Part shown: positions 35,836-64,000 of the stretch, piece by piece
Position numbering within the stretch: position 1 is the first letter of the stretch
Layout of the letters: each line of letters starts with the position of its first letter
NCBI RefSeq assembly: GCF_004359215.1
Contig: NC_090621.1
Location: 1,662,582-1,726,581, forward strand
Direction of reading: 5' to 3'
DNA length: 64,000 nucleotides
Source: Bremia lactucae
Taxonomy: Eukaryota > Oomycota > Peronosporomycetes > Peronosporales > Peronosporaceae
Notes under the pieces: model-generated
The model's input: only the letters and a program-made list of their open reading frames with translations
Databases searched by the model: none
What the model was told of the DNA's origin: nothing
Made by a program: the position numbers and the translations under genes

Positions 35836-36363
35836 TTGCAAGATCTACTTTTAATAAAGTATGGTCTTGTCAAGTTTCGTGTGCACCTATTGGGCACCGA
35901 ACCATTTGTGGTTTATACGGATCACGCATCACTGCGGACCGCAATAAACTCACCGCACCTCTCGCCTAGAATGGCAAGATGGCTCACATTCTTCTCTGGA
36001 TTTAATTTCAAAGTTGAATACAAGCCGGGTAAGTCAAATGTCTTGGCTGACGCTTTATCGCGCAGACCAGACTTCGAGGTTATACACCAGGAAAGTGTGT
36101 CTAGTGCGAAAGCACAATTTCAGCCGGGTCGCCACTACTATCGGGCGCCACCTGCAATGATGGATGCGGGTGGGAATCAACGCTTCCTTGTTGGAAACTG
36201 GCTTGCCCACCGCTCCGTGGGGCGAGGGTATCCGATCCTCGTCCAATGGAAAGGTTATTCGAAGAGTTTTGACTCTTGGGAACCGATCGATACCCTACGT
36301 ATTGATGTGCCCGGCTTGGTGGCTGTCTATGAAAAGGAGCACCAGCTTAAACCACTTCGATAG
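35836..36363 (+). pseudogene. Ty3/gypsy pol fragment: RNase H C-terminus joined in frame to a chromodomain
   Basis: A 175-codon open frame. Residues ~5-80 are the end of RNase H (VYTDHASLRTAI, LSPRMARWLTFFS, VEYKPGKSNVLADALSRRPD). Residues ~105-160 are a chromodomain (GGNQRFLVGNWLAHRS, PILVQWKGYSKSFDSWEP). In an intact element ~1 kb of integrase separates these domains, so a clean in-frame deletion has removed it. The chromodomain matches that at 63867-63547. Its 3' part overlaps an accessory-gene remnant on the minus strand. Confidence 0.85.
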
Positions 36364-36619
36364 TCTCAAATGGACTAGCTGAAGTAGCGTTGTGAGAAGA
36401 AACAGGGGGTACAGTACCACCCATGATTTCTTTCACACGCAAACGAGCGAAATTAATTCGCTGCGACCGCTGTTTCATCGCATCGGAATGCGCATGAATG
36501 CGGCGCAGGAATTTCCGCATCGTATTGGTCCGGCGTTTCATTTGAATGCAACACGGCTGGGATCGGGAAAATACGCCCAAGCGATGTCCCCTGAGCCTTC
36601 CATGATTTAAAAAAGCCAA
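36347..36619 (-). pseudogene. B-type accessory gene fragment, antisense to the pol fragment
   Basis: 90-codon minus-strand frame. Residues ~40-85 (HSDAMKQRSQRINFARLRVK and following EIMGGTVPPVSSHNATSASP) are almost identical to the B-type accessory protein at 62608-64000 (HFDAMKQRSQRINFARLRVK). It lies opposite and downstream of the chromodomain fragment, the same relative arrangement as in the right-edge element. Sequence upstream on its own strand is truncated. Confidence 0.75.
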
Positions 36620-37487
36620 AATAATTATGTGCGTCTACAAGAGCGCGCTCTAGGATTTAGCCCGTTCCAGCGTACATGAATGATAATGATCTATAAGCTA
36701 TGAACGCAATGATGATAGCTTTGTTGAAAATAGTGGTCGCTCTGGCATGATTTTAAGCAAGCCCAAAACATTAAATATATGTCGGATAATATCAAGGCTC
36801 GCACTATTGTCGAAAATCATAACTAACGTGATGTTGAAATATCACATAGTGACATGTTGTAGCGGAGCTACCTCGCACCTAAAGTTAGAGGAAGACTTTT
36901 AGACTCAGAAAGTCTCTTAGTTCTATAGCACTAATGGGTTTAACAACTCACGGAGTCGTGCAAGCTAGACTCAGAAAGTCTCTTAGTTCTATAGCACTAA
37001 TGGGTTTAACAACTCACGGAGTCGTGCAAGCTAACAAAGCTTAATGATTCCTAGCTCAAGGATTTCTTAGAACCAAGTGAAGTCTGTCACATCTTTGTTT
37101 AGCTACTTATCCATTGATCCTACTTCTGAAGTAATGAATTCGACAATGCATCCCTTTGAGCTAAGTGCTATCTTCTGTTTGAAAAGCGTATTTTCAAGAG
37201 CAGTAAAAGCACAATAAGATCAACTGATTCTTCCGAGATCACAACAAAGCAGCAGACGATTGTAATATGCTCCCGCCTGGACCTATTGTAAGAAGAATTA
37301 ACGAGGAAACTTCCTAGTCAGTCTCAGCATTATGAAGTATAGTTGCTATGGGTCTGATTAGAAAAAAAAGATCAAGGTCTCTCTGCCAAGGGATTCGGCA
37401 AAATCGAGGTTGCAACAGTGAATTGTTGAATATATAGGAGTTCAGTCCGGTTGACAAGGAGCATATCACTCTTTCAGGTACCGATAG
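36620..37487. other. Intergenic/repeat-rich, no gene recognised
   Basis: Apart from the tandem duplication at 36901-37032, no coding signal was recognised. A TGTAGCGGAGCTACC sequence near 36856 looks like an LTR start, but no matching end or second copy was found. Confidence 0.45.
36901..37032. repeat. Perfect 66-bp tandem duplication
   Basis: 36901-36966 and 36967-37032 are identical, each starting AGACTCAGAAAGTCTC and ending GTCGTGCAAGCT. A short internal palindrome (GACTCAGAAAGTCTC) starts each unit. Confidence 0.95.
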
Positions 37488-38218
37488 GTCATTCGCGATC
37501 AATTACTTCGCGGTCAGCTTGACAAGTTCAATGCACGAATCGCAAACTTTGCGCGAGCAACAGCAACGGGACCTTCGTCACCAATTATTTGCATAGATCA
37601 CAAGAGAGTCTTACTTTTCCGTTATGTTGACGATTTCGCATAGATCACAAGAGAGTCTTACTTTTCCATTATGTTGACGATTTCGGCGTCCTTTACGGAA
37701 GGTAGAGTTTTTTCTTAAGAGGTTCGGTGGGCACTCATACCAACTCGAATCGAAGGAAAAGCTCGCGCTTCCCAATTTTAAAGGATGGAAGACGCCGGTA
37801 CACACAAGGCGTAACTCTCACTCCGGCGCTAACCAAATCAGTGACGCGTCGTATTATTCTTCATCCGAAATGTTAAAAACACAAGGGCTGTACAATAGTG
37901 AGTCTGAATACGGAAATGACTTGGCAACTGACTCCGACAGTTGTTTAATTGCTTCAATACCTTTGACAAACCACAATGTGCTTGGGAAGCAGCAATCGCA
38001 AGTGTCGAACAACAAATGGCATGTATACGCCTGAATGCGGATCGTGTGCTTGTCAAAAAATGTTGCAGCATGTTTTCCCACTTGAAATTGAAGGGACTTA
38101 AGAACGCTCGGCAATGGAAGTCTCGCTTCGCTATTTAGAGAGCGACTGCTAGCTTCTGCAATACGAAGACGATGACCCCGTGAATGGGGACACTTGTAGA
38201 CTAGCGGCCTTGTAATTT
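37488..38218 (+). pseudogene. Partial duplicate of the adenylyl cyclase gene (3' part), inactivated
   Basis: Nearly colinear with 59790-60484 inside the soluble adenylyl cyclase gene, same strand, about 22 kb away. It shares GATCA(A/G)TTACTTCGCGGTCA, AGGGCTGTACAATAGTGAGT and GAACGCTCGGCAATGGAAGT. Differences include base changes, indels and a local 46-bp duplication (37592-37683, GCATAGATCACAAGAGAGTC), and a stop after CGCTTCGCTATT. It starts abruptly at about 37488 and ends where an LTR begins at 38219. It covers the region before and into the PH domain, with no promoter or catalytic domain. Confidence 0.92.
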
Positions 38219-38739: not shown

Positions 38740-39560
38740 ATGTTAGATGATGGCGGGAATACGCATCACGTTTCGCGTGAAAGTTACTCCTTTCTAAGTT
38801 ACACAAAAAGGAGTGCGGTCGAACGAATGAGTTCGACCGTACGAAACGATGCAATCTTGGCCATGCTGTTCGGTTTGGACAGAGATGCCTTCCATTCAAC
38901 CATCGCCAAGTTCATACAACAGGAACTTGACGAGGTGAAGGAAAAGGTAGCCTTGCTGAATCAGCAAGGCTCTCAACAGGCAGAACTGTTGAAGTTACAA
39001 CAGGTACAGACCCCTGTACCTGAGATGACGCATACGCGTCGTCCCGAAACTCTAAAGATTGATATCTCTAAGTATAGGAGAGTCGAAGAAGACTCTCTCT
39101 TGATATGGTTTGTCGAGTTGGACGATGCCATAAGGGCACGTCATATCGTCGACGAGCAAATGCAAGTAGCATTCGCTCAATCAAATCTGGCAGGTCGTGC
39201 CAAAACTTGGGCATTGGGCCTGAAGTTGCGCGACCCATACGTCTTTGGGTCGCTGGAGGCTTTCAAAACCCGGCTCAAACAGACGTTTGAACAACCAAGG
39301 GCTGAGTTCAGAGCTCGTTCAGAGCTTCTGGAACTCAAGCAAGGCAAGCGTGATGTGCACGCATATGCCCAGCACATACGACTCTTAGCGAGTTGTATTA
39401 CAAATAACCCAGTCCACGAACACACGTTGATTACGGTGTTCATGCAAGGTCTTACGGATGGTCCCGTAAAGACCCACCTGTTCCGCTTGGAACTGGATAC
39501 GCTTGAAGAAGCAATATCCGTTGCGGAACAGGAGGACTTTAGCTTGAGACAGGCTCAAGC
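38740..39560 (+). CDS. Ty3/gypsy Gag (partial, runs into assembly gap)
   Basis: Open frame of at least 273 residues from MLDDGGNTHH up to the N run. It contains the capsid-like Retrotrans_gag region: KIDISKYRRVEEDSLLIWFV, GRAKTWALGLKLRDPY, FKTRLKQTFEQPRAEFRAR, LKQGKRDVHAYAQHIRLLAS, FMQGLTDGPVKTHLFR. A zinc knuckle, if present, would lie in the gap. No stop interrupts it, so this is the best preserved gag in the window. It matches the decayed gag at 7196-8173. Gag would form the cytoplasmic virus-like particle. Confidence 0.88.
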
Positions 39561-39781: not shown

Positions 39782-40297
39782 TAAACGAGGCCATTTAGAT
39801 GGAGGGGGCATCTTTGGAATGCCACCCGTCACATAGCCACGTTCTAAACGACTGGCTTGTGACACCGACTGAGCACGTTCACGTGTCGTCGGTGGAGCTT
39901 TAGGCTCCGAATCCTCTATGTCAGAACCATTATGAATTATGGTCGGAGCATAAGGCGTTGTGGTTATACCCAACAGAGAAGCGGCTGCGCCATTATGGGC
40001 AGCGCTCTCATTACCTGTCGCTGCGCTTTCCAGCGCAGACGATGGGACAGCATTCGTAAATGATGCTGTCTCCATGTTGTGAGCCATGAGAGATGTTTGG
40101 ATGGGCAATAATGCCGCATCATCACTCCTCATGAGCTCGTTGTCCGCATCACTACTATGAGGTGACGGCAACGATGTCGACTCATTGTAGTCGACAATGA
40201 GCGACGGATCAACATCCTCACTGTTAAAGTGGGATGGATCCTTTAGCCCTGTTAACGCGACAGCCGCAGTGGCTGTCTGCGTTCCGACTAAGGCATT
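39782..40297 (-). pseudogene. B-type accessory gene, N-terminal part, truncated by gaps at both ends
   Basis: Minus-strand reading gives the disordered Ser/Ala-rich N-terminal half of the B-type accessory protein: TATAAVALTGLKDPSHFNSE, SPHSSDADNELM, SSALESAATGNESAAH, KAPPTTRERAQSVSQASRLE and IPKMPPPSKWPRL. It is closely similar to 62690-63230 on the plus strand. With a plus-strand gag upstream, its orientation fits an accessory gene antisense to gag-pol at the 3' end of an element whose pol is missing or hidden in the gap. Confidence 0.8.
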
Positions 40298-43095: not shown

Positions 43096-44066
43096 TGAAA
43101 CGGGCGGAGCCGACCAACGTAAAACGTAGGATGCGTCCGCATCTTACGTGGCAATTCTATTCTGTACTTATTGCCTCTGCGATGCAGTACACGGAAAGGC
43201 CCAATGAACTTGGGTAGTAGTTTACTGCTATCCACATTAGTGACTACACGCTTAGGTAAGTCTGCCGTAGAGAGTAGTACTAGGTCATTCGTTTTAAATG
43301 AAAGAACATTTGCTCTTCCATGTTTGTCTGCGTTCCGTTTCGAATGATCCACAACGTTAGCAATGGCATTCTGAACGAAACCGATTACTGATTCTCGAGT
43401 CAGCAGGAATTCCTCCGCTGACTCATTTGTTTTGTCTTTTTCATTGCGCTTTGTGCGCACTGCCATGAGAGTTTTCTCATCTTCGATGTCGATTGCTTCG
43501 ACTTCGAAATCATTCGCGTCGTTGGTAACTTCGACGCGTGATAAGCATGAGCCAGAAATGCTTTGTTCGTGCGAGTCCACCCCCCCCCCCTTAAACTAGA
43601 GGATCCCTCTAATTGGGTGGGTATGCGAGGATGGCGTAAGCCATTCACAAAGAACGGTGTATGCGTTGTAGACGCATGCACAGAATTATTGATGGCGAAT
43701 TCGACCATAGGTAAAACTCGCTCCAATTCGGATACGATTGGACGTAACCTCGAAGTATCTCTTCGAGGACACGATTTACGCGTTCTGTTTGACCATCCGT
43801 TTCCGGGTGATCAGATGTTGACATAGTCAGCCGTGTTCGGAGAGATCGAAACAAGGATTGCCAGAACTCCGCCGTGAATCTCGGATCTCTATCCGAGACC
43901 TATTTACGGGGTAACCCATGGAGGTTGAATACCGTGTCGATAAAGACACGGGCACATCCCGGAGCCGTAATCGACTCTGGTACTGCAGCAAGATGTACCA
44001 TCTTGCTGAATCTGTCCACAAAAACAATGGAATACTTGTTTTGTGGGTGCGTTGACGGGATGTCAA
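43000..44066 (-). pseudogene. Integrase of a minus-strand Ty3/gypsy element, broken
   Basis: Reads the catalytic core in pieces: VDRFSKMVHLAAV near 44040, [20 protein letters not shown] near 43800, [20 protein letters not shown] near 43700. The C-terminal domain (KTNDLVLLSTADLPKRV, LPKFIGPFRVLHRRGNKYRI, HPTFYVGRLRPF) is at 43580-43200. Frames change between 43850 and 43640. The zinc-binding N-terminus is lost in the inverted repeat region. Confidence 0.85.
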
Positions 44067-44279
44067 ACATCACCAATTTCTACCCAGCTCGTACAGACTG
44101 AGGTATTTCCCAAAGACGATCACAAAAACAATGGAATACTTGTTTTTAGACTGAGGTATTTCCCAAAGACGATCACAAAAACAATGGAATACTTGTTTTT
44201 GTAATCGTCTTTGGGAAATACCTCAGTCTCCACGAGCTGGGTAGAAATTGGTGATGTTTGACATCCCGTCAACGCACCC
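44045..44279. repeat. 76-bp inverted repeat enclosing a 53-bp tandem duplication
   Basis: Arms 44045-44120 and 44204-44279 are reverse complements with about two mismatches. Overlapping the left arm and the loop, 44095-44147 and 44148-44200 are identical direct repeats (AGACTGAGGTATTTCCC ... ACTTGTTTTT). It sits exactly where reverse transcriptase should lie between protease and integrase. Confidence 0.9.
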
Positions 44280-44335
44280 TCAACTGTGTTCGACTCGACA
44301 TCAGTTGCATACGCCTCTCGCAGGAGCACATTCTT

Positions 44336-54776: not shown

Positions 54777-55794
54777 AAGGATAGCTAGGAAGAAAACAAT
54801 TGTGCATCCTATTAAACTGTACTTAAAGTTGTGCCGAGCACCATGTGTTTTTAGCATTCCGCGTGAGAAGCTCGTTGAGCGATTCGTTGCACTAAGCTTA
54901 CAATAATAACAATTACTATTCACCATTTTTGCAAGTCAAATTATACATAGAAAGCAATGGGATGTCATGCCGTAGATCTGCTGTTAATCATGCCACTTAT
55001 CGATATACAATCATTTTTCTTGCTGCAGCAATTAATTCCCAAACATATTAACATTTATCATCCAATGTGACAAAAAAATGCAAACGTGAGCGTCGACGAG
55101 ACAGTATTTGGTGAGGCCCAGATACTCATAGTGATTAGTAAGCTTGCTTGCCAAAGTTGCGGTTTGGTGTTCGATTGAAATGAAGTTTTCTAAAAGCTAA
55201 TTTTTTACCTGTAATATCTTCCGTTCAGTTTTTTTTCGACAAACCACATTACTTATATAATCTGCTCCCTTTAAAGGCCACGGTAGAGTATCGGCGATAC
55301 CTCTACACACACTTGTCATAGCCTTGCGAGCTGCGTAGATAGAAAGCAGTCTAATTTTTTTATCGAAAATGGTCAAGAAGCAAGGTTTAAAGAAGCACGT
55401 TTAATCATGTCGCGGCTCCGTTCGTGGTAAATTGACGGTTCCTAAATTAAATGAGACACCAACTGTGGCTTAATTTGTGGCTGAAGTTGCAGCTGAACTT
55501 TAGATGGCCGGTAGATCTTTCCAGTTCGAGCTGCAACTTAAAATGTGTCAAGTGTACACACGTCACAGATCGAGAAAATAAACTCCAGCTTCTATATTGT
55601 TGCACGCAAGTCTAAATGGGGGCAAGTGTATGGCTAAGAGGCCCGCAATGGTCTTAATGTCGTGCAGTTGTCGATTCCTGGTCCGCATGATTGAGCCGTA
55701 TGTCCATTCTAAAGGAGTTAGTGACCCATGGAATGGCCTTTTAAAGCAAAGGATAAGGTCAGAGTGATTGTCACTTCAACCGCAGCGTAACGTC
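54777..55794. other. 1-kb intergenic region, no gene recognised
   Basis: AT-rich, no conserved ORF, no repeat similarity seen. Its right end holds the adenylyl cyclase promoter. Confidence 0.5.
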
Positions 55795-55808
55795 ATTTCT
55801 ATTTGGAG
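55795..55808 (+). promoter_or_regulatory. Possible oomycete initiator for the adenylyl cyclase gene
   Basis: TCATTTCTATTTGG is Inr-like and lies 72-85 bp before the chosen ATG (55880). A second pyrimidine-rich TCACTTCAACC lies at about 55773. Confidence 0.35.
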
Positions 55809-55879
55809 TCCGCGCTGCACAAGCCATCGAAGGCTTCCTTTTGTTGTTAGCTAAACCCATTCAAAGCTCAGTCCTTGCA

Positions 55880-58800
55880 ATGGTGGAGGAGCCAAGAATG
55901 GAGATGAGAAAGGCGTCACGCGAGCGTGCAAGCTCTGGTATGCTTCGGAAGGAGCTTGACATGCGGCTCACCGCATATTTGCCCGCCGTTGTACGACGAC
56001 ATTTGGAAAAACAAGACATGCAATCTCCGTTGCGAATGCCTACGACCCACCGCATGACTGTCGTAAGCATGTTTGCGGACGTGTCTGGATTTACAGCCAT
56101 GACCGAGCTACTAGCTTCTCGAGGACCTGTAGGTGCAGAGGATCTGGGCAAGCATTTAAATTCGTACTTTGAGCAGCTCTTACGTCTCGTGTCTAGTGCT
56201 GGTGGAGACGTGTTTAAGTTTGCAGGAGATGCCATGCTTATCTTTTGGCCAGAAAGCAAGGAGGATACAATGGACAGCTTACTTCGTCGAGCTTTACAGT
56301 GTGCCTTACGCATTCAGTCACATCTTCATGAGGCTGAGTTGGCTCCAGGCGTTATTTTAAGTGTGAAAGTGGGGGTCGGCATCGGTGAAGCCACAATCGC
56401 GCATCTTGGAGGCGAGAGCGATGGAGCCATGACTCGCATTGAGTACATTGCAGTAGGGCCAGCATTGGAGCAAGCATTTAATGCTGAGCATCAGGCTGAA
56501 GCAGGGGAAGTTATTTGTTCAGATGCGTGCTGGAAACGTATTCATGAGTACTTTGACGGTGCACCGGTGTCTAATCTTGATGGTAACAATGATGTCGGGA
56601 TGCATTACTTCCACAAGGTGACTGCAGTGAATAAACCTGTTAAAATTTGCTCCAGGCGACCGTCATACACGCGCCACGACGCGCTTCTTCATACGCGCAT
56701 GAAGCAATATGTATCACGTGCTGTGTGGCCTTATCTTGATGTGCACGATGAGTTCTGGGGATCAGAATTAAGAAACGTGACGGTTTTATTTATTAATCTC
56801 GGCTTCAGGTACATGTTTCTACTAGGCATCGGGGCCATTATGCGACCATGAGACTGACATGTTTTTACTACAGCGAGCAGGATCTAACAAACATGCTCGG
56901 GGCGAAGGATTTGCAGCGACTTCAGGACGCATTTGCTTTTGTCCAGAAGTGTGTGTACGACTATGAAGGCACTATAAACAAATTCCTTATCGACGATAAA
57001 GGCAGCACTGTCGTCGCTGCGTTCGGGCTGCCACCCGTTACCCACGTAAACGACCCGATTCGAGGCATCTTGGCATCTCTTGCTATTTGTGCAGCTTTGG
57101 GAAACAACGGACTCAAGGCATCCGTGGGCATTACAACCGGTACGGCATTGTGTGGCGTTGTTGGGCACCAAGGCAATCGAAGGGAGTATACGGTGCTCGG
57201 CGATATTGTCAACCTGTCAGCCCGACTCATGCAGCGAGCAAAATTGGAAGGTGGGGGTGTTATTACAGACGCTGCGACAAAAATTCACGCGCAAGATGTG
57301 CTTCACTTTGAAAAGCGCCCAGAGATCATGGTCAAGGGGAAGAACGAGAGTATTAAAATTCATCGGCCCTATCCACGAATGTCGATACTAATGGATTTTC
57401 ACTTATCGTCTACGCTTCAGCGACCTACCCGACAAAGCAAAATCAATAGAACCATATCAGGCGAAGAAGTATTAGGGCGGCCATCGCGTGCTAATGCTTT
57501 GTCAGTCGTTAGCCGCGCTGCACCAATTCAGAACTTAATGGACAATATGCATCGCGTTCAGGTGCGTGATGCTCAGCGGCGACTCTCGCTGCGTGCTGAC
57601 CGCCAGTGTCTACCGGCGAGTGAACTTGTCGAAAGCAAGAGTTTCATTGAAGCTCGGGCAGCTCTTCTTGATAAATGTTCCCATTTGAATGCTTTTGCTC
57701 CAGGGGGGGCGTTTATACTCGAAGGTGATATAGGTGTAGGTAAGACGGTTGTCCTACGATCGGCGCTCGCAAGCCCGGAAGCAGAGGATTATCAGGTGTT
57801 GGTGAGTACAGCCAGCCCGTTCTCCACAAAAAAGCCGTATGCTGTTTGGTCTGAGCTTATCACTCGAGGAGCAATGGACACATTACAGAGCGGAGAGCCT
57901 GCTTCTGCGCTTTCACCAGCTTCCGCGACATTAATGGGTTCAACGGTTGCCCAAACTTCGAGCCGACTGGCTGAAACGAAGAGGCGAGAGTGTGTGGCGC
58001 ACTTTGTGAGGCAGAACATTTGCGAAGGTGCCTCTTCCAATACGACGCTTGTCCGATATGCGCATTTACTCAATTCCATTTTAGATACCGACTTTGATGA
58101 TTTTTCGGACATCAAGGGAAATTGTGATAATTCAGCGACCGACACAAGCTTTGTGAAGCATAAATCTTGCAATTTCGAGCCTACTGGCGATGTTCAAGAA
58201 GTACATTACATCTCTAATCAAAGCGAGGAAAATACTGTCGAAGGCCAACCCTATGAGGATGCGATGCGTGCGTGTGGCTATGCATTTGCAGAAGCACCAG
58301 ATAGAAAGCTTAGCGTCAAAGAAAATGAGATCGCGTCGTGGTTTTTGGGTTTGCTTGAGATGGAATTGGCTGAGAAGGAAGATGCTCGACCGTCTCTAAG
58401 TGCTTCAGTTTGTTGTGAAAAAAGCACTAGTAATATTTCACGGAATGTGGATGAAGATACACAAGATTCGGCATGGAAACCCGATGACCTGGATATGAGC
58501 GGCATTCTTATTTTGTGTACGCTTCACGCAATGTCACGCGAACGAGCAACTGTATTTTGCCTTGATAACGCCATGCATATGGACGGAAAATCATGGGTTC
58601 TCGTCATGATCATCGCGAAGTATTTTACCAACTGTATGGTCGCTATCGGGACTAGGTCACCAGGCTTGGCATTAGGTGAGAATACTGCGAGTTGCTCGTT
58701 TCACAAGCAGTTGCGCCTGCTCAAGGGCCTCAAGTCTTCATCATTCAAATACCTCGATACATTTAGCAATAGCGAGACGGAGATGCTGTCACGGCATATT

Positions 58801-60705
58801 CTTCAGGTCCCAGTAATTCCTGATGACCTTCTTGCAATTCTCGTTTCGCGTTGTCAGGGGAACCCGCTCTTTCTCCACGAACTTATTACGGAATTGCAAG
58901 CACAACAAGTTATAAAAGTTTATGAAAAAAAAGGGATTCGCACGTGCGAGTTACATGTACAGAAATCCTGGGGCGAAAAATCAAAGGCGCAATTTTGCTT
59001 TGCGTGCCACATTTGCTTTGGTTGTGCAAAGAAAGAGAAGGAAAAAGACAAGAAAAAAGTTGACATTGAGAAAGAGATGAATGAGAGCGCTGAGACGGAA
59101 GGAATCAAGAAGACTAAGCATCAATGCAAATGTTGTGGCTACTATTTTTGTGCTGAATGTACTCCTAAAGCGTGCCGAGCAAAGATTCCAGGGAAGTATA
59201 GCGAACCTGTTCGTCATTGTCGGACGTGCTACAATTTTTCATCATCACGACGACCTAGTGGTTCATCGCACGCTATTGGGGCTGCAGTAGGAGCGCTAAA
59301 CGAGAAGCGGTCTCGCTCAAAGGGCCGCTTACGCTCCATTTTTCATGCTGGAAGCAGTGGAGATCATTACTCATTGTCTTCGTCGTCATCGAATTCTCTT
59401 TCCGTGTCGAATCTTCAGACACTGACAAATTGCATCGGACTGCGACCGCCGCGGACCGTGAAAAGCGTTATTACTACTATGCTAGACCAGCTGACATGCT
59501 CGCAACGCATGCTCATGAAGACAGCGAGTGCCATAGGATTAGTCTTTGACGAGGAGATGCTTCGAGGTGCATGTCCCATCGAGGCGCATCTATCGCGGCT
59601 ATCTCAAGACCTGGTGGACCTTGAGCAGCTGGCAATGATTCGAAAGATTGACACGTTCATTGGTGGTGTGCCTACCTCATCCAAAGCATCATTAGGAGCA
59701 AGAGGTGCTCGTTTGACCACAAGTCAGACAGCTCCACCTAGTAGCTTCGTTAAAGTCAAGTTCGAGTTTTGTCATGGCTTTATGCGTAGTGTCATTCGTG
59801 ATCAGTTACTTCGCGGTCAGCTTGACAAGCTCAATGCACGAATTGCAGACTTTCGCGAGCAACAGCAACGGGAGCTTCGTCACAATTTTTTTGCAAAGGC
59901 CAACGAGAGTCTTACTCGCCCCGTATTATTGACGATCTCGGCGTCTTTTACTGAAGGTAGAGGGTTTATCCAAGAGGTTCGGCGGGCACTTACACCTACT
60001 GAAAATGGAAAAAAAAGCTCGCGCTCCCCAATTTTGAAGAATGGACGACGCCGGCGTCTACATACAAGGCGCAACTCTCACTCCGGCGCTCACCGAATCA
60101 GTGACGCGTCGTATTATTCGTCTTCGGAAATGTCAAGGACACAAGGGCTGTACAATAGTGAGTCTGAATACGGAAATGACTTGGCGACTGACTCCGACAG
60201 TTGTTTGATTGCTTCAATACCTTTGACCAACAATATCTTTGGGAAGCAGCAATTGCAAGTGGCATGCAAACAAACGGCATGTATACGCCTGAAAGCAGAT
60301 CGTGTGCTTGTCAAAAAGTATTGCAGCATGTTTTCACACTTGAAATTAAAGGGACTTAAGAACGCTCGGCAATGGAAGTCTCGCTACGCTGTTTTGGAGA
60401 GCGACTGCTTGCTACTGCAATACGAAGACGATGACCCCGTGTTTGGGGACACTTGTAGACTAGCGGCTTTGCAATTTGGCACGGTTTTGTTTTTAAAAGA
60501 CGCGAAAGTAAGCGCATGTGATCCGGAGGTGGCAGCAAAGGTCAATTGCTTCCAAATTCAAGTCACAGAATGGACGAAACAAGGCCAAGTGATGAAAAAT
60601 CAACGACGGTCCTTTATCATTGCGGCCGAGAGCGAAGAAGAGGTTGACAATTGGGTTTACATGATTCGCTTTGCGATTGAGTCGCTCGAAAGTTCGACGC
60701 GCTAA
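55880..60705 (+). CDS. Soluble-type adenylyl cyclase with tandem class III domains, P-loop NTPase, FYVE-like zinc finger and PH domain
   Basis: Makes cAMP from ATP; relative of animal ADCY10 and bacterial class III cyclases. Exons 55880-56808 and 56874-60705 (65-bp intron) give 1586 residues. Cyclase 1 (~60-260) has both metal Asp (D67 in FADVSGF, D117 in FAGDAM) and K113. Cyclase 2 (~300-500) lacks the first Asp (FINLGFSEQD) but keeps IDDKGSTVVAAFG and LGDIVNLSARLM, as expected of a C1/C2 heterodimer. A Walker A motif GDIGVGKT (594-601) starts an ATPase region. A FYVE-like finger lies at ~1018-1090 (CFACHICFGC ... CKCCGYYFCAEC ... CRTC), split by a Lys/Glu insert. A C-terminal PH domain (~1450-1580) includes YCSMFSHLKLKGLKNARQWK. 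ATG 55880 is the first in frame. A partial copy lies at 37488-38218. Confidence 0.92.
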
Positions 60706-61877: not shown

Positions 61878-62476
61878 TGTAGGCGGGCACGTCGTAATGC
61901 GGCCACGCTCTATCCTAGCACAGCGAGGATTTAGGCAGGCACGTCGTAATGTGGCTACGCTTTACTTAAGCACACACCCTAGCACAGCGAGGAAGCGGTT
62001 AAACCTGTTTCTCTTGCGTGCAGTGAGGTAGTTGTGGTGGGCGCGCAAGCGACCTCACCCAACACACTAAGAACTCTGGTAAAGTGTCGTCACGGGAGCG
62101 GTAATCCGTCTCCTCGTGCGCACTTACCAAGTAGGTAGTAGTTTTCAGACTGATTTATATTTAATAGAACTAAATACAAATACCTATTTTTACCAATTAA
62201 AATGTTATCTCTATAGATATCATTTAATATGTATTGCGAGCGTATCTTTATAGATACATCGCGTAACGGATGACGCTAGCCGTCATCATGGATAAACGCT
62301 AGGCGTCATCCCTCCTAATGTGAAGTGCATCATATACACAAGGATTGGTCACAAATGTGCACCACACCCGAGTGCTGGGTCTGATTACTTCAATTAAGTA
62401 ATTGATCATCCCCATAAGTACACCAAGTGTACTTAACGGGGACTGTGTAATATTAGGACAACTTGAGCCCGTTACA
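61878..62476 (-). repeat. 3' LTR (family 3) of a minus-strand Ty3/gypsy element
   Basis: 599 bp with TGTA/TACA ends: forward TGTAGGCGGGCACGTCG ... TTGAGCCCGTTACA. Sense is minus, because the family-3 LTR at 46212-46950 precedes a minus-strand gag and because a polypurine tract abuts this copy at 62477. Its terminal ~55 bp (GGCACGTCGTAATG ... CACAGCGAGGA) are tandemly duplicated. An inverted repeat ATGACGCTAGCCGTCAT lies near 62270. Confidence 0.85.
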
Positions 62477-62490
62477 CCATCCCCCCTTTA
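62477..62490 (-). promoter_or_regulatory. Polypurine tract next to the 3' LTR
   Basis: On the minus strand TAAAGGGGGGATGG immediately precedes the LTR start TGTAACGGGC. This is the expected plus-strand primer site of an LTR retrotransposon and fixes the element as minus-oriented. Confidence 0.8.
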
Positions 62491-62607
62491 AGAACAAATC
62501 TACATTTTGAAATTCGTCAAAGAGGTGAGAGGAACTGCGAGCAGCTTTACGCGCCGCTACTTCACTCAATCGCTTTAGCGCACGTGTTTCCATACACGGC
62601 GCCAAAG

Positions 62608-64000
62608 ATGCCATTTAAAAGGGGCGATGTTCGTGGGTCGTCTGCGAAGACGCCCACTTAACCTCACACTAAGCGCACGCGCCGCGTTAATTCGCCGACC
62701 GCGGCTAATGCCTTAGTCGGAACGCTGACAGCCACTGCGGCTGTCGCGTTAACAGGGCTGAAGGATCCATCCCACTTTAACAGTGAGGATGCTGATCCGT
62801 CGCTCATTTTCGACTACAATGAGTCGACACCGTTGCCGTCACCTCATAGTAGTGATGTGGACAACGAACTCATGAGAAAGGATGATGGCGCATTATTGCC
62901 CATCCAAACTTCTCTCATGGCTCACAACTTGGAGACAGCAACATTTACGAATGCTGTCTCGTCTTCTGCGCTGGAAAGCGCAGCGACAGGTAATGAGAGC
63001 GCTGCCCATAAAGGCGCAGCTGCTTCTCCGTTGGGTAATACCACAACGCCTTATGCTCAGACCATACTTCATCATCGTTCTTACAAAGAGGATTCGGAGC
63101 CTAAAGCTCCGCCGACGACACGTGAACGTGCTCAGTCGGTGTCACAAGCCAGTCGTTTAGAACGCGGCTATGTGACGAGTGGCATTCCAAAGATGCTCCC
63201 TCCATCTAAATGGCCTCGTTTAGACGGGCCAAGAGCGTCGCTCCTAGAGCGCGCTCTTGTAGACGCAAATAATTTTTATGGCCCAATAAAATCATGGAGA
63301 GCTCAGGGAAAATCGCTTGGGCGTATTTTCCCGATCCTGGTCGTGTTGCGTTCAAATGAATCGCCCGACCAATACGATGCGGAATTCCTGCACCGCATTC
63401 ATCCGCATTTTGATGCAATGAAACAGCGGTCGCAGCGAATTAATTTCGCCCGCTTGCGTGTGAAAGAAATAATGGGCGGTACTATAACCCCTGTTTCTTC
63501 TCACAACGCTACTTCTGCTAGTCCATTTGAGACTAGCGAAGTGGCCTCAGCTGGTGCTCCTTTTCATAGGAAGCAACCAAGCCAGGCAATCAATACGTAG
63601 GGTATCTATCGGTTCCCAAGACTCAAAACTCTTCGGGTAACCTTTCCATTGGACGAGGATATGGTACCCTTGCGTCACGGAGCGGTGGGCAGGCAACCTT
63701 CCAACAAGAAAGCGTTGATTCCCACCCGCATCCATTAGTGCCGGTGGCGCCCGATAGGAGCGGCGATCTCGCCCACCTAATCGTGGCTGCTTTGCCTTCG
63801 TCCGTTCAGTCTCAGGCGTTAAACGCTGCTGAACGACGTATTGCGGATCTCGAGAGTCAAGTCTCACGACTGACCTCGGATCTCGTTGATGTCCGAGCGA
63901 AGGCTCGTCAGGGTTATGAACGCCTGAAGACTCGCTTGGACCTTTTCGAACGGATAATGCTGAGGGATCCGCGTTACTCGCGTGATGTCCCTCGCTCTCC
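62608..64000 (+). pseudogene. B-type accessory gene on the strand opposite to pol (nearly intact, runs off window)
   Basis: From ATG 62608 (MPFKRGDVRGSSAKTP), 132 bp inside the 3' LTR. One TAA at 62659, then an open frame to 63600: Ala/Ser/Thr-rich disordered region (NALVGTLTATAAVALTGLKD, SSALESAATGNESAAH), RERAQSVSQASRLERGY, and a conserved helical block (RASLLERALVDANNFYGPIK, HFDAMKQRSQRINFARLRVK). A shift into another frame near 63570-63598 continues as a linker and then a coiled coil to the window edge (NAAERRIADLESQVSRLTSD). The linker overlaps the minus-strand chromodomain. The copies at 39782-40297 and 36347-36619 are closely similar. No known domain recognised. Confidence 0.7.
63547..63867 (-). 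pseudogene. Chromodomain end of minus-strand Ty3/gypsy pol
   Basis: Open frame reading PALMDAGGNQRFLVGRLPAH, then HILVQWKGYPKSFESWEPID. It is nearly the same as the chromodomain at 36130-36330. It is the C-terminal end of pol; the integrase would lie beyond the right edge. Its coding sequence overlaps the accessory gene on the plus strand. Confidence 0.82.

Follow-up and report, generated by a model that had tools for sequence, protein, structure and literature searches.

Our analysis shows that a chromodomain Ty3/gypsy element of the downy mildew Bremia lactucae carries a conserved protein-coding frame antisense to gag-pol. This frame has been selected in the source lineages of the element and is present in other species. 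We favor, with some reserve, the view that it encodes a conserved accessory protein that acts as a nuclear regulator of the element's own expression or integration. The element was found at the end of a 64,000-nucleotide stretch of contig NC_090621.1 (hereafter the window, whose coordinates are used throughout). A sequence-only reading had proposed that the frame is a standing gene rather than a product of chance, and this proposal is supported by related copies in which the frame is open and by proteins of other species.

The window end carries the 3′ part of the element, with the minus strand as its sense strand. The minus orientation claimed in the sequence-only reading is confirmed by an LTR that runs from TG to CA on the minus strand, by a purine-rich tract, and by a Gag and a chromodomain that are in sense on that strand. 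The features of this region are as follows.

About 61878-62476, minus strand: 3′ LTR, beginning with TG and ending with CA on this strand (ends read by eye).
62477-62489, minus strand: purine-rich tract adjoining the LTR, with one T within it (direct reading).
62477-62607, plus strand: leader of the antisense gene, from the LTR edge to the ATG (direct reading).
62608-64000, plus strand: antisense accessory gene, broken in this copy, with its 3′ end past the window (intact relative, L012:982-2460:-).
62608-63072, plus strand: basic N-terminus and Ser/Ala/Thr/Pro-rich part, codons 1-155 (alignment and composition of five relatives).
63073-63531, plus strand: conserved block, codons 156-308, with no overlapping sense gene (alignment of relatives).
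63547-63999, minus strand: 3′ end of pol, comprising linker and chromodomain, with the antisense gene on the opposite strand (Pfam and reading of frames).
63598-63705, minus strand: chromodomain match, PF00385 (Chromo), residues 99-134, 27.2 bits against a cut-off of 25.1.
63828-63962, plus strand: predicted coiled coil, opposite the pol linker (coiled-coil Pfam matches below the cut-off, heptad scan).

A partner LTR lies past the window in the same orientation, at about L031:5981-6528, with 82% identity over 557 aligned columns. The LTR-to-LTR distance is about 8.65 kb, and much of this stretch is N. The N stretches may be assembly gaps; the 115-Mb assembly is reported to contain 24 Mb of gaps (PMC6570648). 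Because their spacing and order fit, we infer that the two LTRs belong to one insertion. No target-site duplication was recognized by eye at either LTR. Gag adjoins the partner LTR on the sense strand, with matches to Retrotrans_gag (5.8e-16), Ty3_capsid (6.6e-07), and a zinc knuckle (0.00095). In a copy elsewhere (L032), integrase and RNase H are matched on this strand too, in the expected order, and reverse transcriptase is matched weakly. The minus strand carries Gag, RNase H, integrase, and chromodomain, and the plus strand carries the accessory ORF.

We compared the element to Chronos, an oomycete chromodomain Ty3/gypsy element described as having its chromodomain at the 3′ end of pol and a second, archaeal-type RNase H (PMC5348765). 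A chromodomain at the 3′ end of pol is present in our element too (PF00385). We found no Pfam match for a second RNase H between the Ty3 RNase H and the integrase in one copy (L032:1308-1565:-, about 364 nt). Membership in Chronos was rejected on the lack of this match in one readable copy. The terms "antisense", "opposite strand", "additional ORF", and "accessory" are all absent from the main text of PMC5348765. Among the titles and abstract beginnings listed in searches of the open-licence literature, none reports an antisense gene in an oomycete LTR element.

The window contains a second copy of the element, with the same layout in the opposite orientation. Other sequence separates its two pieces.

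36129-36655, minus strand: part of the antisense gene, 92.0% identical to another copy, L002, with the chromodomain on the plus strand (by eye).
39782-40297, minus strand: N-terminal part of the antisense gene, 97.9% identical to L002.

A Gag-like frame of a different retroelement (by eye) lies between these pieces on the plus strand, at 38850-39560. An exact 66-nt tandem duplication (36900-37031) was also seen near the second copy. The plus strand at 55757-60705 holds a host gene region in which some segments resemble a cyclase and others a zinc finger (domains by eye), and parts of its 3′ end recur near the second copy at 37488-38218 with 92-93% identity. An inverted repeat at 44041-44283 has 91-nt arms that are 96% complementary and 61 nt apart.

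The antisense frame opens with an ATG at 62608 on the plus strand, 132 bp past the LTR edge on the internal side. The earlier statement that it starts 132 bp inside the 3′ LTR holds if the internal side of the LTR was meant; the ATG does not lie within the LTR itself. From this ATG the gene runs antisense into the pol chromodomain, as had been described, with the Chromo match on the minus strand. Comparing leaders among copies revealed no outstanding conserved or promoter-like block. In the leader of L002, just internal to the LTR, a 9-bp inverted repeat surrounds CATTTT (L002:1333-1356, by eye). The repeat is imperfect in the window copy and could be a binding site or nothing.

The window copy contains a single in-frame TAA at codon 18 (62659-62661) and is otherwise open to 63600. 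Relative to L002 it has lost one base at offset 981 (about 63588), and another frame, from 63570 to the window end, continues the antisense product as linker and coil. In L002 the frame is open for 429 codons before the sequence turns to N. L012 has an open frame of 493 codons (L012:982-2460:-) that ends in an Arg/Ser-rich tail. The pol stop in L002 lies 925 nt downstream of the antisense ATG, with the antisense frame running on into pol; codons 1-308 therefore overlap no sense gene.

Searching 115.9 Mb of the genome gave at least 128 matches to the antisense frame, two of which are pieces of one place. We sampled 30 copies by protein similarity. The ATG start is kept in 29 of these, and at least one in-frame stop is present in 23. 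Judged on the part seen, which is partial in some copies, seven have no in-frame stop, and five of the 30 also lack a frame-shifting indel. Since protein similarity had guided this choice, we drew a further 30 loci on the basis of their DNA match to the LTR edge and leader. Many of the DNA-selected loci are partial and the long ones are mostly broken, as expected for old copies. Three of them (L037, L055, and L056) are copies already in the first set, giving a pool of 57 (30 + 27); the DNA-selected sample of 30 counts these three under their first ids. Spurious reverse matches (L040_r and L060_r) were dropped from the pool. Many pooled copies are partial, so alignment columns hold fewer than 57. 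We also compared the first 100 of 150 chromodomain places with 174 antisense places among the matches listed, leaving out small pieces and repeat entries. An antisense match lay on the opposite strand at 31 places and on the same strand only at none, and the other 69 had no partner among the matches listed. A search of plasmid DNA gave no match.

Related proteins are found in other downy mildews. Three overlapping protein searches returned 16, 43, and 12 matches, many members of the 43-match set being fragments. The named relatives come from Peronospora effusa, P. farinosa, and P. matthiolae. Four full-length relatives (P0002, P0006, P0007, and P0008) are 480-488 aa long and share the same layout. 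Full-length members align from an MPPKRG-like start to the coil, followed by an Arg/Ser-rich tail. Residues 1-480 of P0007 (P. effusa) are matched in this genome, with up to 54% identity. In the conserved block, L012 is identical to P0007 at 87 of 149 positions and to P0008 at 89 of 152. No Phytophthora protein was recovered among the 8000 candidates sharing most words, nor with one stretch of one protein. Scanning viral contigs with the protein alignment produced 45 pattern stretches and no relative.

The predicted product has the three parts that the sequence-only reading had assigned to it, and a fourth, the Arg/Ser-rich tail, can be added from sequence beyond the window. Among five relatives, the first 30 residues contain 7-9 Lys/Arg, and codons 1-155 are 42-50% Ser/Ala/Thr/Pro. 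In a heptad scan, four of the five have their best coil window at about residues 387-430, with 7-8 of its 10 core positions occupied; that of L012 falls slightly later and extends into the tail. The basic tail has 3-8 Arg-Ser or Ser-Arg dipeptides in the five relatives and, in the window copy, lies past the window. The chromodomain sits opposite the linker between block and coil, again as claimed, and the pol linker sits opposite the coil. Pfam returned nothing above the cut-off for the antisense product (window frames, L012, P0007, P0008, and P0002), and the weak matches were mostly to coiled-coil families. A PDB sequence search gave 0 matches, and NCBIfam gave a single match far below the cut-off (E 0.18).

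These searches bear on the possibility that a host gene was captured and is carried by the element. Transposable elements are known to capture genes (PMC7264820), and in our judgement the coil and Arg/Ser tail resemble cellular nuclear proteins. On the other side, the named matches in the three protein searches are without exception downy mildew proteins labelled "unnamed" or "uncharacterized", the product has neither a Pfam match above the cut-off nor a PDB relative, and a recent capture would not be common to lineages about 50% apart. We regard host capture as very unlikely.

The openness of the frame is hard to reconcile with chance. If stops arose as often as in the five other frames, the probability of finding none in the 308 non-overlapping codons would be 5e-12 to 4e-6. 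Across codons 1-308 of the protein-selected copies, the antisense frame has 28 stops in 9,173 codons, compared to 362-741 per about 9,150 in each of the five other frames. For the same codons, pairwise pN/pS comes to 0.70 when read in the antisense frame. The two remaining plus frames give 0.90 and 0.93. The three minus frames, which carry 362-463 stops each, give 0.94, 0.66, and 0.86, so that one of them (0.66) falls below the antisense frame. The weak pairwise signal is put down to decay after insertion.

We examined variants by the number of copies that share them. Variants found in several copies mostly arose in source lineages and are hence more telling. When the second allele is present in at least 5 of the 57 copies, variants at codon positions 1/2/3 number 9/10/25 (p = 0.004), and for variants in at least 3 copies the numbers are 39/28/57 (p = 0.006). 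The distribution is flat once a second allele in 2 copies is enough to be counted (96/89/106, p = 0.47). It is also flat for all variants (218/218/230, p = 0.81), an evenness that is expected from copies decaying after insertion. The DNA-selected 30 alone gave 9/10/23 in at least 3 copies (p = 0.013) and 28/30/45 in at least 2 (p = 0.08). In the first 30 copies, substitutions in at least 3 copies within the non-overlapping part fall at 14/16/35. The sequence-only reading had named an even spread over codon positions outside the overlap as refuting the gene, and the gene passes this test: shared substitutions there are uneven, and all substitutions taken together are even. One old copy can be compared over about codons 14-311, where its identity is 72%. 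Its nonsynonymous/synonymous ratio is lowest in the antisense frame (0.63), followed by the minus frame with the same third positions (0.76), and lies at 1.02-1.14 in the four remaining frames. The mismatches of this copy number 63/57/84 at codon positions 1/2/3, a borderline result (p = 0.052). Within the chromodomain overlap, shared variants among the copies are too scarce to reveal either frame.

The evidence from shared indels is mixed. Two indels in the antisense frame are common to at least four copies, and both are multiples of three: of the 57 copies, 5 have a 21-nt deletion and 26 have a 9-nt insertion. Three indels in the LTR edge and leader also reach at least four copies, none of them a multiple of three. 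Within the antisense frame, 12 of 14 shared indels are not multiples of three, all of them in two or three copies. With the count restricted to codons 1-308, the same is true of 7 of 8 shared indel events, and each of the seven occurs in two copies. Nearby events of equal size were merged for these counts.

Two readings dispense with the protein as the useful product. The first holds that the antisense frame is a by-product, kept open by pol coding and shared descent, that yields no useful protein. The stops in 23 of the 30 sampled copies and the lack of a codon signal in the pooled variants would fit this reading. However, codons 1-308 lie outside the pol overlap and have far fewer stops than the other frames in the protein-selected sample, shared variants favor third positions in the DNA-selected sample as well, and 480 codons remain open in relatives that are about 48-54% identical. 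We consider a by-product extremely unlikely. A frame open by chance was likewise rejected, on the stop counts in other frames and the third-position bias of shared variants. In the second reading the antisense RNA is the useful product, silencing or timing the sense transcript, and the protein is secondary. LTR elements may have antisense transcripts that function as RNA (PMC7264820), and small RNAs of both orientations have been reported for the two most abundant transposon classes of Phytophthora infestans (PMC3522703). An RNA role, however, predicts neither a codon-position bias nor amino-acid conservation across species, nor does it predict the widely shared in-frame indels of 21 and 9 nt. 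We judge it quite unlikely.

We tested how the two strands share the overlap by asking whether a relative's antisense residues can be encoded while the other strand keeps the L012 chromodomain residue. Five relatives were compared with one common query (L012), so the comparisons are not independent; the same register in codons 1-308 served as background. At differing sites, the chromodomain residue could be kept at 40 of 52 for P0007 compared to 97 of 203 in codons 1-308 (p = 0.0001), and at 28 of 33 compared to 76 of 148 for P0002 (p = 0.0003). The corresponding values were 18/21 and 73/123 for P0001 (p = 0.016), 27/39 and 103/193 for P0006 (p = 0.049), and 34/51 and 103/194 for P0008 (p = 0.056). 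The relatives thus tend toward compatible codons, with two strong comparisons (P0007 and P0002) and three weak ones (P0001, P0006, and P0008). Opposite the pol linker, in the antisense linker and coil, all five relatives are at background level (25/45 for P0007, p = 0.22). From the linker and coil to the segment opposite the chromodomain, antisense identity drops for P0007 (from 57/86 to 28/61, p = 0.011) and P0008 (from 48/86 to 24/61, p = 0.036), and it shows no significant drop for P0001, P0002, and P0006. Earlier shuffles over eight relatives ignored common descent and are not relied on. Because their codons are compatible, we infer that the genes of the relatives, including those of Peronospora, very probably overlap a chromodomain too. 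These comparisons provide statistical support for a sense frame that sets the sequence opposite the chromodomain and not elsewhere, and constraint seems to be divided between the two strands.

We compared the antisense gene to those of other retroelements. Antisense ORFs between pol and the 3′ LTR (aORF-3R) are described in maize Grande (gene23), rice RIRE2, and Silene Retand (PMC11963269, PMC7264820). The Grande protein is reported to be nuclear and its gene to be read from a promoter upstream of gene23, and a regulatory role has been proposed for the Retand antisense proteins (PMC11963269, PMC7264820). Retand, a non-chromovirus, is reported to have a TRP28 domain (PF04195) in the antisense ORFs of nearly all its clusters, and 11 Smc domains are reported in these ORFs (PMC11963269, PMC7264820). 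As far as these accounts describe them, the plant ORFs resemble ours in place, orientation, many copies, and occurrence in more than one species. They differ in that their hosts are plants and that the TRP28 of Retand has no match in the oomycete protein. We rejected membership in the TRP28 family, since PF04195 had no match at E up to 1 in L012, P0007, P0008, P0002, or the window frames, a range in which HMMER filters drop most matches above about 0.1. The oomycete gene also runs into pol opposite the chromodomain, whereas the word "overlap" is absent from the main texts of PMC11963269 and PMC7264820.

HBZ of HTLV-1 and the antisense genes of other deltaretroviruses likewise lie near the 3′ LTR, and the basic N-terminus and coil of the oomycete product invite comparison. 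HBZ has a zipper and a regulatory action. It is a bZIP protein, whereas the oomycete product, known here from sequence alone, has no bZIP match in Pfam in either the window frames or the relatives. HBZ is reported to be nuclear (PMC11963269), and HTLV is described as having an antisense promoter within its 3′ LTR (PMC7264820).

Composition, together with the plant and HTLV cases, points to a nuclear, dimeric regulator of the element as the most likely role, which stays as conjectural as the regulatory role guessed at in the sequence-only reading. In the proposed mechanism, an accessory protein of about 480-493 residues would be encoded on the strand opposite gag-pol, from the 3′ LTR to the end of pol and on into pol. 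The gene would be transcribed from a promoter that lies within the 3′ LTR or beside it. The protein would be brought to the nucleus and to nucleic acid by its basic N-terminus and its Arg/Ser tail, and would dimerize through the coil. The protein may then regulate the element's own expression or integration, like HBZ in HTLV-1 and as proposed for Retand.

The protein could instead associate with Gag or with the pre-integration complex, serving for example in nuclear entry. Its coil and basic tail would suit RNA or integrase binding, and a tie between such proteins and nuclear entry is discussed in PMC7264820. Yet the element already has a Gag with capsid and zinc-knuckle matches, and the antisense gene would need its own transcript, which would be unusual for a particle protein. 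The antisense product also has no Gag or capsid match in Pfam and no similarity to the element's own Gag. We find a partner role unlikely. With Gag present on the sense strand and the two proteins dissimilar, the antisense product is therefore not a missing Gag, and the Gag-like role guessed at in the sequence-only reading was not borne out.

The role of nuclear regulator can be extended to the overlap, in a version that we regard as doubtful. The two genes may form a double-coding unit in which the sense protein holds the chromodomain and the antisense protein holds the coil, and each of these segments corresponds to a flexible linker in the other protein. As nuclear regulator of the element, the antisense protein would work with or against the chromodomain-integrase whose gene overlaps its own. 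If this is true, targeting and control would be locked together in their evolution.

Among LTR elements, antisense accessory genes had already been described in plants and deltaretroviruses. Finding one in an oomycete chromodomain element, with a product that matches neither TRP28 nor bZIP, suggests that retroelements gained the trait on more than one occasion and benefit from it. The two-strand overlap, with its apparently divided constraint, also offers a natural setting in which to study the maintenance of antisense overlapping genes. The high copy number of the element and the relatives in several downy mildews make both questions testable with sequence and RNA data.
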